Positions 6,155 to 13,842 of a stretch of 64,000 bases of DNA are shown here, in pieces; the stretch's first letter is position 1; each line of letters opens with the position of its first letter. The stretch is from Solibacillus merdavium (lineage in GTDB: Bacteria; Bacillota; Bacilli; Bacillales_A; Planococcaceae): contig NZ_JACSPW010000012.1 of NCBI RefSeq assembly GCF_014836935.1, forward strand, positions 1 through 64,000, written 5' to 3'. The notes under the pieces are model-generated. The model was not told the origin of the DNA, searched no databases, and saw only the letters and a list, made by a program, of their open reading frames with translations. Both the position numbers and the translations under genes were made by a program.

Positions 6155-6163
6155 TGTTACAAT
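6155..6163 (+). promoter_or_regulatory. Extended -10 promoter of the rib operon (candidate)
   Basis: TGTTACAAT is an extended -10 element, about 20 bp upstream of the first FMN aptamer. I see only a weak -35 (TTAGTT, 17 bp upstream). Transcription starting near 6170 would place both riboswitches in the leader RNA. Confidence 0.4.
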
Positions 6164-6182
6164 AATTTTCAAATAAAATAAT

Positions 6183-6311
6183 TTCCTTCGGGGTCGGGTG
6201 AAATTCCCAATCGACGGTGATGAGTTAATCTCTAAGCCCGTGAGCCGCTTTTTGTGTGCAGGATTTGGTGCAAGTCCAAAGCCGACAGTATAGTCTGGAT
6301 GGGAGAAGGAA
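6183..6311 (+). promoter_or_regulatory. FMN riboswitch, first copy (RFN element)
   Basis: A complete RFN aptamer. The P1 strands are TTCCTTCGGGG and GGGAGAAGGAA, and between them are the conserved blocks GGGTGAAATTCCC, CGACGGTGATGAG, AGCCCGTGAGCC, GATTTGGTG, CAAGTCC and AAAGCCGACAGT. It lies on the leader of the riboflavin operon and is followed by its own terminator. FMN binding is expected to stop transcription. The 3' P1 strand GGGAGAA can also pair with TTTTCCC at the base of that terminator, giving a plausible antiterminator. Recognition is by sequence and is strong. Confidence 0.96.
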
Positions 6312-6368
6312 TAGCCACGCATTTTTTAAAAATTTGATTTAAAATGTGCTTTTTTGCTATACACTTTT

Positions 6369-6397
6369 CCCGTCGCACCAAGTGACGGGATTTTTTT
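6369..6397 (+). terminator. Terminator of the first FMN riboswitch
   Basis: CCCGTCGC / GTGACGGG forms an 8-bp stem with one G-U pair and a five-base loop, followed by seven T. It lies about 57 bp after the first aptamer and is the presumed expression platform. Confidence 0.85.
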
Positions 6398-6417
6398 ATT
6401 GATAATTTTATATGAAT

Positions 6418-6545
6418 TTCCTTCGGGGTCGGGTGAAATTCCCAATCGACGGTGATGAGTTTAACTCTAAGCCCGTGAGCCACTTTTGTGTGCAGGATTT
6501 GGTGCAAGTCCAAAGCCGACAGTATAGTCTGGATGGGAGAAGGAA
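6418..6545 (+). promoter_or_regulatory. FMN riboswitch, second copy (RFN element)
   Basis: A second complete RFN aptamer, nearly identical to the first. Differences are confined to a few bases in the GAGTTTAACTC hairpin and the CCACTTTTGTG hairpin. All conserved FMN-binding blocks are intact, so both copies look functional. Its linker and terminator are unrelated in sequence to those of copy 1. The 3' P1 strand can pair imperfectly with TTCCCTCTC at 6604-6612, just before the terminator. Confidence 0.96.
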
Positions 6546-6615
6546 GCAATGTCATTCGCTTTTTGAAATTTGTGTTCAAAAGGCTTATTTGATGCTGCTA
6601 AATTTCCCTCTCATC

Positions 6616-6645
6616 GAACTCCGAATTCAATCGGGGTTCTTTTTT
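6616..6645 (+). terminator. Terminator of the second FMN riboswitch
   Basis: GAACTCCGA / TCGGGGTTC forms a 9-bp stem with one G-U pair, followed by six T. It lies 24 bp before the ribE start codon, so it acts immediately before the operon. Confidence 0.85.
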
Positions 6646-6668
6646 AATTTTAAAAAGAGGTGAGTAGG

Positions 6669-7304
6669 ATGTTTACAGGAATTATTGAAGAGTTAGGAAC
6701 TGTGGAGAAGATTAGTCAGTCCACACAAACGATGGAATTATCCATTCGAGCAAGTAAAATTTTAGAAGACGTAAAACTCGGAGACAGCATTGCGGTGAAC
6801 GGTGTTTGTTTAACAGTGAAAAAATTTTCGTCCAATTCATTTTTGGCAGATGTGATGCCTGAAACTGTTAAAGCAACAAGCCTGAAACAATTGACTGTAG
6901 GTATGCATGTCAATTTGGAACGGGCAATGCTGGCGGACGGCCGTTTTGGCGGACATATTGTATCTGGCCATGTTGATGGTGTCGCAATCATACAGCGGAA
7001 AAGACCTGTTGCTAATGCGGTCTATGTGGATTTAGCGATGGACCGTACTTTAATTGCACAGTGTATCGAAAAAGGTTCTATAACAGTCGATGGCATAAGC
7101 TTAACGATTTTTAATGTGTCAGATACACTCGTTACCATTTCCTTAATCCCCCATACGTACGAACAGACCGTGTTGGGCTATAAAAAGGCTGGGGATGTTG
7201 TGAATATTGAAACAGATTTGATCGGGAAATATGTGAAAAAGCATTTACAAAATCAAACGATAAATACGATTACACAAGATTTTCTGCAACGTACAGGGTT
7301 TTAA
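6669..7304 (+). CDS. ribE: Riboflavin synthase alpha chain
   Basis: A 211-residue riboflavin synthase that dismutates two 6,7-dimethyl-8-ribityllumazines into riboflavin and the ribitylamino-pyrimidinedione. It starts [10 protein letters not shown], the family signature, and shows the two duplicated lumazine-binding domains: domain 1 with GVCLTVK and [10 protein letters not shown], domain 2 with GISLTI and IPHTYEQT. I use the ATG at 6669 with GAGGTGA upstream; a GTG three codons earlier overlaps this site. First gene of a ribE-ribB-ribH operon controlled by two FMN riboswitches. In B. subtilis a ribD homologue would precede it; here there is none. Confidence 0.95.
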
Positions 7305-7318
7305 AGGAGTGGGAAAAG

Positions 7319-7930
7319 ATGAATACGATTGACGAAGCAATTCAAGCATTAAAAAATGGTGAAATTATTATTGTATCTGATGATGAAAATCGAGAGAATG
7401 AAGGAGATTTTCTCGTTTTAGGAGAATTTGCAACACCGGAAAATATCAACTTTATGGCACTTCATGGTAGGGGATTAATATGTACACCTATTTCTCTAGC
7501 CATCGCTGAAAAACTTTGTCTTCACCCAATGGTCCAGAGTAATACAGATACATATCAAACGGCTTTTACGATTAGTATCGATCATATTAACACAACGACA
7601 GGAATCAGTGCATTTGAACGTTCAGCAACGATATTGGCATTACTTGAACCAGCAGCGAAGCCGGAACATTTCCACCGTCCTGGGCATGTTTTTCCGCTTA
7701 TCGCAAAAGAAGGCGGGGTAATAGAGCGCCGCGGTCATACAGAGGCAGGGGTAGATCTTGCAAAATTATGCGGGTCGATGGAAGCGGCGGTCATATGCGA
7801 AATTATGAATGAAGATGGTTCGATGGCGCGGATGCCGCAGCTTGAAAGACTCGCACTAAAACATCAGCTGAAATTTATTACGATAGAAGATTTAGTTCAA
7901 TATATAAAAATAAACACAATGGTTGTATAA
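7319..7930 (+). CDS. ribB: 3,4-dihydroxy-2-butanone-4-phosphate synthase
   Basis: A 203-residue enzyme making 3,4-dihydroxy-2-butanone 4-phosphate and formate from ribulose 5-phosphate. The signature is complete: [11 protein letters not shown] near residues 21-31, HGRGLICTP near 51-59, RPGHVFPL near 120 and [12 protein letters not shown] near 138-149. In most Bacillales this domain is fused to GTP cyclohydrolase II (RibBA/RibAB, about 400 residues). Here the protein stops right after the RibB domain, so GTP cyclohydrolase II must be encoded elsewhere. Start set by AAAGGAGTG; gap to ribE is 14 bp. Confidence 0.94.
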
Positions 7931-7945
7931 GAAGGAGCATATGAA

Positions 7946-8410
7946 ATGGGAAAAACATTTGAAGCGCAATTAGTAGGTACAGATTTAAAAATCGGAATCG
8001 TTGTCGGCCGGTTCAATGAATTTATTAACTATAAATTATTAAGCGGTGCAATCGATGGATTAAAAAGACACGGTGTAAATGAAGATAATATTGATACTGC
8101 CTGGGTACCGGGTGCATTTGAAGTACCCTTTATTGCAAAGAAAATGGCAGAAGCCAATAAGTATGATGCAGTAATCGGCTTAGGTACAGTCATTCGCGGA
8201 TCAACAACACATTATGATTATGTATGCAATGAAGCAGCTAAAGGAATTGCCAAAGCGGGCTTGGATACAGGGGTACCGGTTATTTTCGGGATTGTCACAA
8301 CTGAAAATATCGAGCAGGCGATTGAACGCGCAGGGACAAAAGCAGGGAATAAAGGCTATGACAGTGCGATGTCAGCTATAGAAATGGCGAATTTAAATAA
8401 GATGTTTTAG
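7946..8410 (+). CDS. ribH: 6,7-dimethyl-8-ribityllumazine synthase
   Basis: A 154-residue lumazine synthase that condenses dihydroxybutanone phosphate with the ribitylamino-pyrimidinedione. Family motifs are [10 protein letters not shown] near residue 21, [10 protein letters not shown] near 52, [16 protein letters not shown] near 77-92 (containing the catalytic His) and FGIVTTEN near 112. Its length fits the 60-subunit capsid-forming type. It lies 15 bp after ribB with AGAAGGAG upstream, and a strong terminator follows, making it the last gene of the operon. Confidence 0.95.
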
Positions 8411-9824: not shown

Positions 9825-10127
9825 ATGGATTTATTAGAACAACAACTAAAAGCATTGGCAGATAAAAATCGTCTTACGCTTTTAGCATGCATGAAAAATG
9901 GTGAGGTATGTGTTTGTGATTTTGTTGAAGTGCTTGGCATTTCGCAACCTGCTGTTAGTCAACAGTTAAAAAAATTAAAAGATGCAGGTATTATTTTAGA
10001 AAGAAAAAAGGGGACGTGGAAATATTACCGAATTGCAGAGCAACTTTCCCCTGTTGTAGAAGCTGTCATTAACCAACTAGAAGCTGATGATGGGTGTCGT
10101 TGTGGAGGAAATACATGTTCTTGTTAG
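9825..10127 (+). CDS. arsR: ArsR-family arsenite-responsive repressor
   Basis: A 100-residue winged-helix repressor. The recognition region is [18 protein letters not shown] (residues 40-57), followed by the wing [12 protein letters not shown]. The As(III)-sensing motif of the classical ArsR type is present as C29-V-C31-D in GEVCVCDF. The C-terminus adds four more Cys in [10 protein letters not shown] (residues 91-100), which could form an extra metal site. It heads the arsenic operon and overlaps arsB. Arsenite binding should release it from the operators at 9747-9804. Confidence 0.92.
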
Positions 10128-11404
10128 CAAGCATTCTCTTTATCACAACATTAATTTTCGTTATTTGGCAGCCTAGGGGACTGAATATTGGTTGGTCTGC
10201 CATAGCTGGCGCTGTAATGGCATTACTTCTTGGTGTTGTTGATTTTTCTGATGTTGGCTCAGTAATCAACATTACATGGAATGCTACGCTCTCATTTATA
10301 GCTATTATCTTAATCTCATTGATTTTAGATGAAATTGGTTTATTTGAGTGGGCTGCCTTACATATGGCGCGTGCAGCAAAAGGCAGTGGCATCAAAATGT
10401 TTGTTTATGTTAGCTTACTTGGCGCTATTGTAGCAGCATTGTTTGCTAATGATGGGGCTGCACTGATTTTAACGCCGATCGTATTAGCGATGGTTCGTAA
10501 CTTACAATTCAGTGAGAAAATGATTTTCCCGTTTATTATGGCAAGTGGCTTTATCGCTGACACAACCAGCTTACCTTTTGTCGTCAGTAATTTAGTAAAC
10601 ATTGTCTCTGCTGACTTCTTTAACATAGGCTTTATCGAATATGCTTCACGTATGTTTATTCCTAACTTATTCTCACTTGTGGCAACCATTGTTGTGCTAC
10701 TCCTATATTTTAACAAGTCGATTCCACGGGCATATGACGAAGCAATGTTAAAAGAACCACGTCTTGCCATCAATGACATGAAACTATTTAAGTTATCTTG
10801 GTTCATCCTAGCAATATTAGTGATTGGTTATTTTTCAAGCGAATGGATTGGCGTACCCGTTTCACTAGTTGCAGGGGTAATTGCAATTTTCTTCTTAGTA
10901 ATGGCACGTCGAAGTAAAGCTGTCGATACAAAAGCAGTTGTTAAAGGTGCTCCATGGAATATTGTTTTCTTCTCAATTGGTATGTATATTGTCGTTTACG
11001 GCTTAGGGAATGCAGGTTTGACATCTGTACTTGCTCGACTTATTGAATGGACAGCAGACCAAGGTTTATTTGTCGCAACGGTTGGTATGGGCTTTATTGC
11101 AGCTTTTCTATCATCTGTTATGAATAATATGCCGACTGTGATGGTCAATGCATTAGCAATTGCTGAAACGACTACCAATGGCACATTACGAGAAGCGCTC
11201 ATTTATGCCAATGTTATTGGTTCTGACTTGGGACCAAAAATTACGCCTATCGGATCTCTTGCGACTCTTGTGTGGCTTTATGTACTTTCAGGAAAAGGCA
11301 TTAAAATTTCATGGGGGACGTATTTCAAGACAGGGATTTTATTAACGATACCTATTTTACTGTTTACATTATTCGGTCTTTATATCACGCTTTATATTTT
11401 TTGA
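10115..11404 (+). CDS. arsB: Arsenite efflux permease ArsB
   Basis: A 429-residue polytopic membrane protein of the ArsB/NhaD (ion transporter) superfamily with about 11-12 hydrophobic helices. Characteristic segments are [17 protein letters not shown] near residue 110, [17 protein letters not shown] near 148 and the C-terminal [20 protein letters not shown] near 368. It extrudes As(OH)3 (and Sb), either alone or with an ArsA ATPase; no arsA is present here. The ATG at 10115 lies inside the end of arsR with GGAGG upstream, so the two are translationally coupled. Confidence 0.93.
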
Positions 11405-11424
11405 GGAATGGAGCCTTATTTTAT

Positions 11425-11838
11425 ATGAAAAACACGTTATATTTCTTATGTACCGGCAACTCATGCCGTTCACAAATGGCTGAAGGTTTTGCCAAAAAGT
11501 ATTTACCTGATTGGAACATCAAAAGTGCTGGGATTGAAGCGCATGGATTAAATCCAAATGCTGTCAAAGCAATGGCTGAAAAAGGCATTGATATATCGAA
11601 ACAAACTTCGGATATCATTGACCAAGAGATTTTAAATAACGCAACACTTGTTGTGACTCTGTGCGGTGATGCAGCCGACAAATGCCCAGTAACACCACCG
11701 CATGTAAAACGTGAACATTGGGGATTTGATGATCCTGCAAAGGCGAGTGGAACTGAAAAAGAAAAATGGCTTGTATTTCAAACAGTGCGCGATGCGATAG
11801 AAACAAGAATTCAGTTGTTTGCTAGTGACCAAAACTGA
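11425..11838 (+). CDS. arsC: Arsenate reductase, thioredoxin-coupled
   Basis: A 137-residue low-molecular-weight-phosphatase-fold arsenate reductase. The P-loop is C9-TGNSC14-RSQ. The redox pair Cys lies at C80 and C87 ([10 protein letters not shown]), equivalent to Cys10, Cys82 and Cys89 of the S. aureus pI258 enzyme, which is reduced by thioredoxin. It converts arsenate to arsenite for export by ArsB. A longer open frame begins inside arsB, but the MKNTLYF start matches the family N-terminus. Its stop overlaps the next ORF (TGATG). Confidence 0.94.
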
Positions 11839-12044
11839 TGCAAATACACAAATCGGGCGATAAGTCAGTCACATTTTTCACGGCTTATATGCAACTCGTT
11901 TTACAAGCTAACATCACTTCAGTTGAAAATCTTGAAAAATACATGGTCCAACACTTTTTTCAAAATGATATATCTTCACTCGGTACAATTACGCTTGCTA
12001 ATTTTAAACAAGCGCTTCAAATAATTATAAGAAATGAGGAATAA
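11838..12044 (+). CDS. Unknown small protein in the arsenic operon
   Basis: A 68-residue protein whose ATG shares a base with the arsC stop, so it is translationally coupled. It is mostly helical and soluble, with no Cys and no membrane segment (YMQLVLQANITSVENLEKY, then LGTITLANFKQALQII). I do not recognise it. Placement between arsC and a Cys-rich flavoprotein suggests a role with one of them, perhaps as a small partner, but nothing in the sequence proves this. Confidence 0.65.
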   Translation: MQIHKSGDKSVTFFTAYMQLVLQANITSVENLEKYMVQHFFQNDISSLGTITLANFKQALQIIIRNEE

Positions 12045-12046
12045 AA

Positions 12047-13345
12047 ATGGAGTTTAATATTTTAACAAATTCATCTTGTTGCACACCAAATACAGGGTGT
12101 TGCGAACCAAAATATCCAGTCGCTATTATTGGTGCAGGTCCTATTGGGTTAGCCGCTGCTGCCCATTTAAAATCTTACAAATTGCCATTTATCATATTAG
12201 AGAAAAATGAGGTGGCTGCAAATGTTGCTTCTTGGGAACATGTGCAACTATTTTCACCATGGGAATTTAATGTAGACAGTGCTGCTAAACAATTGTTAGA
12301 AAACACTGGGTGGACGATGCCGAATAAAAACACTATTCCAACTGGAAAAGAATTACGAGAAGATTACTTAATTCCTCTAAGCAAGTTGTTTAAAGAGCAG
12401 ATCCATACGAATGAAGAGGTTATTGCGATTACAAAGTTAGATACCGATAAAATGAAATCGACCAACCGAGTAAATAAGCCTTTCTTGATTTTCACAAAGA
12501 ACGGGCAAGCGACAAAAACTTATAAGGCCAGCGCTATTATTGATGCGACAGGTACATGGGGACATTCCAATCCTGCTGTTAGCCATGGGGTATGGTTACC
12601 GAACGAACACGCAGCCAGTCATAAAATAAATTATCAAATTCCTAACGTATCTGCCGATTCTTCACGCTATGCAAATAAACGCATTGGTGTTGTAGGTGGT
12701 GGACATTCAGCCATCAATTCCCTACTTCAACTAGTAGAATTAAAAGGTGCATACCCACAAACGGAAATCACATGGATTTTGCGTAAAAAGCGTGTTGAAG
12801 ATGCTTTAGGTGGCGGAACTTCCGATGAATTAGCTGCGCGTGGTGAGCTTGGCTTAAAAATGAAACAAATACTCTCTGATAAAACGATTCATGTGGAAAC
12901 ACCTTTCTATATCCAAACTATTTTAGAGAAAGAAGAAGGATTGATCCTTAAAGGTACAGATAAAAAAATTGGTCCTTTTGATGAGCTAATTGTCAACACA
13001 GGCAATCGTCCAGATTTTTCATTCCATAGTGAATTACGTTATGAGGTTGAACCATCGACAGAAGCTGTTTCTGCAATTGCTTCATTAATTGATCCAAACC
13101 TTCATAGTTGTGGAAGTGTACCAGCACATGGTGAAAAAGAGTTACGGCAACCAGAAACGAACTTTTACATTGTTGGCTCTAAGTCATACGGACGCGCTCC
13201 AACTTTCTTAATGGCTACTGGTTATGAGCAAGTACGTTCAATTGTTGCGTTCCTTGCTGGCGACATATCTGCTGCTCTTGATGTGAAATTAACACTACCA
13301 GAAACAGGCGTTTGTCATACTGGGATTGAAGGATGCTGTCAATAA
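12047..13345 (+). CDS. FAD/NAD(P)-dependent oxidoreductase with Cys-rich ends (arsenic operon)
   Basis: A 432-residue flavoprotein with a two-dinucleotide-binding-domain layout. The FAD site is GAGPIG (residues 29-34) and a second GGGHSA (217-222) fits NAD(P)H. IIDATGTWG (164-172) is the ATG-type motif of flavin monooxygenases. The N-terminus carries two CC pairs (C11/C12 and C18/C19) and the C-terminus ends C423...C430-C431-Q, pairs that could bind As(III) or another thiophilic metal. Related flavin monooxygenase-like genes (arsO) occur in ars operons with no settled substrate; this one is longer and Cys-rich. It follows the small ORF by 2 bp. Confidence 0.78.
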   Translation: MEFNILTNSSCCTPNTGCCEPKYPVAIIGAGPIGLAAAAHLKSYKLPFIILEKNEVAANVASWEHVQLFSPWEFNVDSAAKQLLENTGWTMPNKNTIPTGKELREDYLIPLSKLFKEQIHTNEEVIAITKLDTDKMKSTNRVNKPFLIFTKNGQATKTYKASAIIDATGTWGHSNPAVSHGVWLPNEHAASHKINYQIPNVSADSSRYANKRIGVVGGGHSAINSLLQLVELKGAYPQTEITWILRKKRVEDALGGGTSDELAARGELGLKMKQILSDKTIHVETPFYIQTILEKEEGLILKGTDKKIGPFDELIVNTGNRPDFSFHSELRYEVEPSTEAVSAIASLIDPNLHSCGSVPAHGEKELRQPETNFYIVGSKSYGRAPTFLMATGYEQVRSIVAFLAGDISAALDVKLTLPETGVCHTGIEGCCQ

Positions 13346-13362
13346 AAAGGGGCTTTTATTAG

Positions 13363-13842
13363 ATGATTCGTTTTTTAGAAAAGAAAGATATACCTGACGT
13401 GCTGACAATCTATCAATTAGGGATTGACACAGGTATCGCGACATTTGAAACAATGGCACCTTCTTTAGAACAGTGGGACCAAAAATTTCACCCAAACCTT
13501 CGATATGTCTTTGAAGAAAATGATAACATTTTAGGTTGGATATCTATAACGCCTGTTTCTTCAAGAGAGGTTTATAAAGGAGTAGGAGAAGTAAGTGTTT
13601 ATGTACACCCTCATGCTAAAGGCAAAGGGGTTGGTACTCAACTACTTAAACAATTAATTGTGCAAGCCAAACTCTCGGGTTACTGGATGCTACAATCATC
13701 TATATTTGAAGTGAATTTAGTTAGTATTCAACTTCACAAAAAGTCCGGATTTAATATTGTAGGGTTACGTAAAGGAATTGCTAGAAAAAACGATCAATGG
13801 ATGAATACAATTTTGATGGAACAACATTTAATACTTGAATAA
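13363..13842 (+). CDS. arsN: ArsN-like (phosphinothricin-type) N-acetyltransferase
   Basis: A 159-residue GNAT of the phosphinothricin acetyltransferase/ArsN1 type. The family N-terminus is seen in YQLGIDTGIATFET (residues 17-30), then GWISITPVSSREVY, then GEVSVYV and the acetyl-CoA loop KGKGVG (86-91). ArsN1 enzymes acetylate the amino group of arsinothricin, an arsenic-containing glutamate analogue antibiotic, and PAT acetylates phosphinothricin. Its position as last gene of an arsenic operon favours the arsinothricin role; the substrate is inferred. A repeat that can act as terminator follows. Confidence 0.8.
   Translation: MIRFLEKKDIPDVLTIYQLGIDTGIATFETMAPSLEQWDQKFHPNLRYVFEENDNILGWISITPVSSREVYKGVGEVSVYVHPHAKGKGVGTQLLKQLIVQAKLSGYWMLQSSIFEVNLVSIQLHKKSGFNIVGLRKGIARKNDQWMNTILMEQHLILE

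Follow-up and report, generated by a model that had tools for sequence, protein, structure and literature searches.

The riboflavin synthesis genes ribE-ribB-ribH of the 64-kb window (the whole stretch of DNA analysed here) are preceded by a doubled FMN riboswitch, confirming what had been read from the sequence alone. We consider it likely that this leader acts as an in-series ("pseudo-cooperative") FMN shut-off, and that it derives from an old doublet whose aptamers have been homogenised by gene conversion while their expression platforms diverged.

Architecture of the ribE leader

All features of the leader lie on the forward strand. A probable promoter, read from the sequence as an extended -10 element TGtTACAAT (6155..6163), is located ~17 nt 5' of the first aptamer. 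Its -35 element is weak, so that it was missed by the consensus promoter scan, and nearly every relative in the genus carries TGnTACAAT at this position. Aptamer 1 (6180..6314) and aptamer 2 (6415..6548) both match RF00050 over its full length (model positions 1-138, 116.3 bits each, E 2e-26, for a gathering score of 66.2 bits), within 3 nt of the limits given by the sequence-only reading, and they are the sole Rfam matches across the window. As that reading had noticed, they differ by a few bases, namely 4 of the 123 aligned core positions, all confined to the variable P3 and P4 loops.

Each aptamer is followed by its own platform, composed of a terminator and an antiterminator-like helix to that aptamer. 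In unit 1, the 5' strand of the predicted antiterminator, GAUGGGAGAAG (6298..6308), occupies the 3' edge of the aptamer in the minimum free energy fold, and its predicted 3' strand, CUUUUCCCGUC (6364..6374), overlaps the 5' arm of intrinsic terminator 1 (6368..6397, hairpin 6368-6390), which was recovered by terminator scan and folding with a 9-bp stem, a U7 tract and -16.0 kcal/mol. In unit 2, the genus-conserved GAUGGGAG (6532..6539) forms the 5' strand of a predicted antiterminator/antisequestor helix with CUCUCAUC (6608..6615), a segment invariant in 15 related leaders. Intrinsic terminator 2 (6616..6645, hairpin 6616-6639; 9-bp stem, U6, -13.5 kcal/mol) starts directly after it. In the closed state of aptamer 2, the Shine-Dalgarno (SD) region of ribE, GAGGUGAG (6657..6664), is a predicted pairing partner of 6608-6615. 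Downstream lie ribE, encoding riboflavin synthase (6669..7304; TIGR00187, 252 bits), ribB, encoding a DHBP synthase that lacks the RibA domain usually fused to it (7319..7930; PF00926 only, TIGR00506), and ribH, encoding lumazine synthase (7946..8410; TIGR00114), that is, riboflavin synthesis genes, as expected 3' of an FMN riboswitch.

The likeness between the two platforms is at chance level (local score 24, shuffled maximum 27), in agreement with the earlier claim that they are unrelated. No promoter-like site was detected in the 100-nt linker between the aptamers, either by consensus scan or by conservation among relatives. Two complete aptamers of the same class thus share one leader with no promoter between them. 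Since a terminator sits between them, this is not the shared-platform arrangement of the cooperative, glycine-type tandem aptamers.

Distribution and copy number among relatives

The doublet stands before ribE-ribB-ribH in 14 of the 16 genus genomes, the remaining two (G010 and G011) being devoid of any ribE, and the sequences indicate that it is older than the genus. At the family scale, ~118 of 261 genomes (a hand count) contain three or more FMN riboswitches, versus 15 of 399 in a phylum-wide draw. We verified the positions of 54 arrays of 2-5 copies each, found in 53 family genomes and in one genome of another family (G057). Doublets are in the majority, accompanied by a dozen triplets, by four copies in G032 and G114 and by five in G103, with a period of ~202 nt; a further genome (G117) displays three units and a masked N stretch with room for a fourth. 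Copy number in the family therefore spans 1 to 5 among related species. The arrays of G103, G032 and G114 (L093, L051 and L099) stand before ribD-ribE-ribBA-ribH, and because their whole units, platforms included, are nearly identical, they appear to be recent whole-unit expansions. In the five-copy array, no terminator matched the fixed scan pattern, though U-run hairpins are readable in the repeated platforms; either the scan falls short here or the terminators are weaker.

Named organisms with a doublet ahead of ribE are Kurthia huakuii, Lysinibacillus fusiformis and two Psychrobacillus. Lederbergia panacisoli and Bacillus sp. FJAT-49711, which presumably belong to other families, also have one, ~1.2 kb further upstream of ribE. 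In another set of 20 named loci, all aptamers found were single. The sequence-only statement that FMN riboswitches are normally single holds in general, but tandem copies are common in this family, and doublets and triplets had already been published.

Two candidates were not counted as arrays: the three FMN riboswitches of G021 are at separate loci, and two apparent weak tandem aptamers in G208:C55 are really one aptamer with an insertion in P4. At the latter locus (L124, G208:C55:13391-13722), the rib-operon FMN aptamer is split by a sizeable P4 insert ending in a GGCGCAATCACGCCTAGGCG-like sequence, and the insert end resembles leader repeats of G009 and G079 (GCAATTACGCCAAGGCG). A degenerate FMN-like element scoring 34 bits, below the cut-off, was also observed (L128, G187:C30:401770-401905); its 3' part, GTCTAGATGGGAGAAG, is intact, and it may be a decayed or a variant aptamer. 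In another genome (L092, G090:C1:558500-573000), an FMN array with ribD-ribE-ribB occurs twice in tandem with an N run between, representing either an operon duplication or an assembly join.

Concerted evolution of the aptamers

Platforms compared between species are related by position: first-first and last-last comparisons yielded z of ~10-80 in most pairs and first-last comparisons mostly 0-4, with four exceptional pairs (G174-G188, G187-G188, G030-G067 and G000-G013). Platform 1 of the window is recognisable in its nearer relatives only. As the platforms keep positional homology across species, the doublet predates those species. The aptamers evolve in concert within their leaders. With genomes of more than 80% RibE identity left out of the comparison, 117 of 130 aptamers were strictly closest to a neighbour from their own leader, and a tree forcing all first copies into one clade was rejected (dlnL 299, p-AU 3e-44).

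The balance of site patterns changes with divergence. Below ~83% RibE identity, most genome pairs exhibit joint changes of both copies and position-specific sites are few, whereas closer relatives have at least as many position-specific sites as jointly changed ones; this shift is how gene conversion is expected to unfold over time. One such event was caught in the sister genomes G015 and G002, which are identical over platform 2 (130/130) and aptamer 1 (135/135). At all 4 sites where aptamer 2 of G002 differs, aptamer 2 of G015 carries the bases of its own aptamer 1, and the outermost bases of this second copy are unchanged.

Gene conversion, one of the two origins proposed for the near-identical aptamers from the sequence alone, is thereby supported: repeated conversion has probably held the aptamers nearly identical, and the platforms have diverged freely. 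A fresh duplication in each lineage is excluded where the platforms keep their positional orthology, and only there. Such duplication did take place in G032, G103 and G114, and in far-apart genera, where such orthology is not visible, repeated independent duplication would equally cluster aptamers by locus.

Predicted control by the two units

From a single promoter, RNA polymerase would transcribe both complete FMN riboswitches, one after the other, before reaching ribE-ribB-ribH. At low FMN, each aptamer would pair through its 3' edge with downstream sequence, forming an antiterminator, and the polymerase would read through; at high FMN, both aptamers would bind it and close their P1 stems, and each terminator would form and act. 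With two checkpoints to pass, output would approximate the product of two FMN responses, which would lower the threshold, steepen the curve and reduce the leak. As an arithmetic expectation only, which assumes independent and equal units, a single switch has an EC10-EC90 span of 81-fold, which shrinks to 40-fold with two units and 27.5-fold with five; with two units, the EC50 falls to 0.41 K and the leak is squared.

RNA folding predicts contrasted designs for the two units. In unit 1, GAUGGGAGAAG pairs with CUUUUCCCGUC, antiterminator and terminator share bases and are predicted to be mutually exclusive, and the free fold contains the antiterminator (-64.7 kcal/mol, versus -62.2 kcal/mol with P1 forced and the terminator formed); on these predictions, unit 1 has the textbook attenuator design. 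The predicted helix of unit 2, between GAUGGGAG and CUCUCAUC, ends exactly where terminator 2 starts, so that it abuts the terminator and does not overlap it. The hairpin of terminator 2 is predicted in both states, so that simple mutual exclusion does not account for ligand-dependent termination in this unit. With the aptamer strand made unavailable, CUCUCAUC is predicted to pair with the ribE SD region with a probability of 0.36-0.87 in 15/15 leaders, with no covariation. Unit 2 may then also control the ribosome-binding site of ribE, as a second, translational layer.

Alternative explanations

This last prediction opens the way to a bi-mechanism tandem, in which unit 1 would act on transcription and unit 2 mainly on translation: with FMN bound, CUCUCAUC would be free to pair with the ribE SD region around the terminator hairpin, and without FMN it would pair with the 3' edge of aptamer 2, freeing the ribosome-binding site. 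The invariance of CUCUCAUC in the related leaders, the recurrence of the closed-aptamer pairing in every one of them, an antiterminator helix that does not exclude terminator 2 and the existence of tandems of this kind (SAM-II/SAM-V; PMC9481103) are all consistent with such a scheme. However, SD regions are purine-rich like GAUGGGAG, so that chance complementarity is expected, the SD region is predicted to be paired in both states in several species, and internal units distant from any SD show the abutting layout too (G020). We regard the bi-mechanism tandem as possible but somewhat doubtful, and rank in-series termination above it because of the SD pairing without covariation and the abutting layout of these internal units. 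It is improbable that the array is a neutral by-product, that is, direct repeats that grow, shrink and stay identical by recombination with little regulatory gain. The variable copy number among related species, the recent unit duplications in G032, G103 and G114, with platforms nearly identical too, and the observed gene conversion would fit this idea, but direct repeats free of benefit should vanish by deletion, and the doublet persists across the genus, its two terminators and two antiterminator helices all intact even though the platforms have diverged fully.

Concerning origin, the sequence-only reading had also suggested that the doublet could be the scar of a deleted gene, such as ribD, once located between two separate rib leaders. 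The absence of ribD and of a RibA domain from the window operon, with both located elsewhere in a ribA-ribD operon, could be read this way. So could a live FMN-partial ribD-FMN-ribD duplication in G063 (L125:2469-4583), the sole leader-gene-leader case and the sole exception to the absence, by tblastn, of any rib coding remnant in array spacers (73-300 nt). This case is, however, a perfect 1057-bp tandem repeat of the FMN leader and the 5' portion of ribD, comes from a 7%-contaminated assembly and is possibly an artefact; it possibly illustrates how a head-to-tail leader duplication can start. Moreover, ribD stands directly downstream of all copies in 15 arrays, the quadruple and quintuple ones included (e.g. 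G020, G032, G057, G103, G114, G126, G190 and G283), and four family genomes (G016, G018, G022 and G025) have a single aptamer before an operon without ribD. These two sets of loci imply that tandem copies and ribD loss are independent, and a lost gene is strongly disfavoured, being very improbable as the source of the doublet. Finally, near-identical direct repeats are a known assembly risk, which the sequence-only reading had proposed to check in related genomes; the same layout, with diverged sequence, recurs in the 14 genus genomes, several of them single-contig assemblies, so the doublet is real and an assembly or sequencing artefact is refuted.

Other loci of the source genome

The third FMN riboswitch of the genome (G000:C11) precedes a RibU-like ECF transporter S component. 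The ribA and ribD genes are grouped with one for a UbiH-like FAD monooxygenase in an operon of their own (G000:C52; L086:5945-8872), without an FMN riboswitch. This operon is retained in G010 and G011, both without ribE, and G034 has a second ribD in addition to a complete rib operon; for these reasons, the ribA-ribD operon may supply a non-riboflavin product too. Elsewhere in the window (9825-13842), an arsenic-resistance-like cluster was noticed by eye, with an ArsR-type regulator, an ion transporter, an arsenate-reductase-like protein, an FAD/NAD oxidoreductase and a GNAT acetyltransferase.

Relation to known systems and significance

Tandem FMN riboswitches are an already known kind, of which the window doublet is another case. 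Sherlock et al. (2022) counted 31 doublet and 4 triplet FMN riboswitches, listed as pseudo-cooperative, and in-series control is the standard reading of same-class tandem riboswitches (PMC9481103). A 2025 survey reported doublets (FMN FMN, 87%) and triplets (FMN FMN FMN, 13%) before ribE-ribB-ribH in Bacillota (PMC12452182). These published tandems share with the window the repetition of one class, separate platforms and the same operon. The four- and five-copy FMN arrays and the aptamer homogenisation seen in this family are not mentioned in the main texts of either survey, and no relevant open-access papers were found on such arrays or on the concerted evolution of tandem aptamers, an absence that is no proof of their being unreported. 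Relative to the Bacillus ribD-leader FMN riboswitch (RFN element, RF00050), the window resembles it in aptamer sequence, fold, position before riboflavin genes and attenuation layout (unit 1), and departs from it by two copies in series, an operon without ribD and a unit 2 antiterminator that abuts the terminator where overlap would be usual. The tandem TPP and the triple c-di-GMP-I (Bacillus thuringiensis) riboswitches, as cited in PMC9481103, are likewise complete identical-ligand units in series that give steeper control; they respond to other ligands and, as cited there, were tested experimentally, whereas the window doublet is known from sequence and prediction. Should unit 2 act on translation, the SAM-II/SAM-V bi-mechanism tandem would be a possible model, although it combines two aptamer classes where the window has one (PMC9481103).

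More tentatively, the family leader could be viewed as a copy-number array of 1 to at least 5 complete FMN riboswitches, in which copy number would set threshold and leak, aptamer-confined gene conversion would equalise ligand affinity, and platforms would be free to specialise, the first ones as transcription attenuators and the one nearest the gene as a switch acting on both transcription and translation.

The papers found treat FMN doublets and triplets only as survey counts; in this family, their evolution becomes readable: some species have expanded whole units to four or five copies, and others keep an old doublet with homogenised sensors and diverging platforms. The near-identity of tandem aptamers need not, therefore, mean recent duplication. 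In addition, a single operon is preceded in this family by one and the same riboswitch in 1 to 5 copies, a natural copy-number series that makes the assumption that units in series sharpen the response directly testable.
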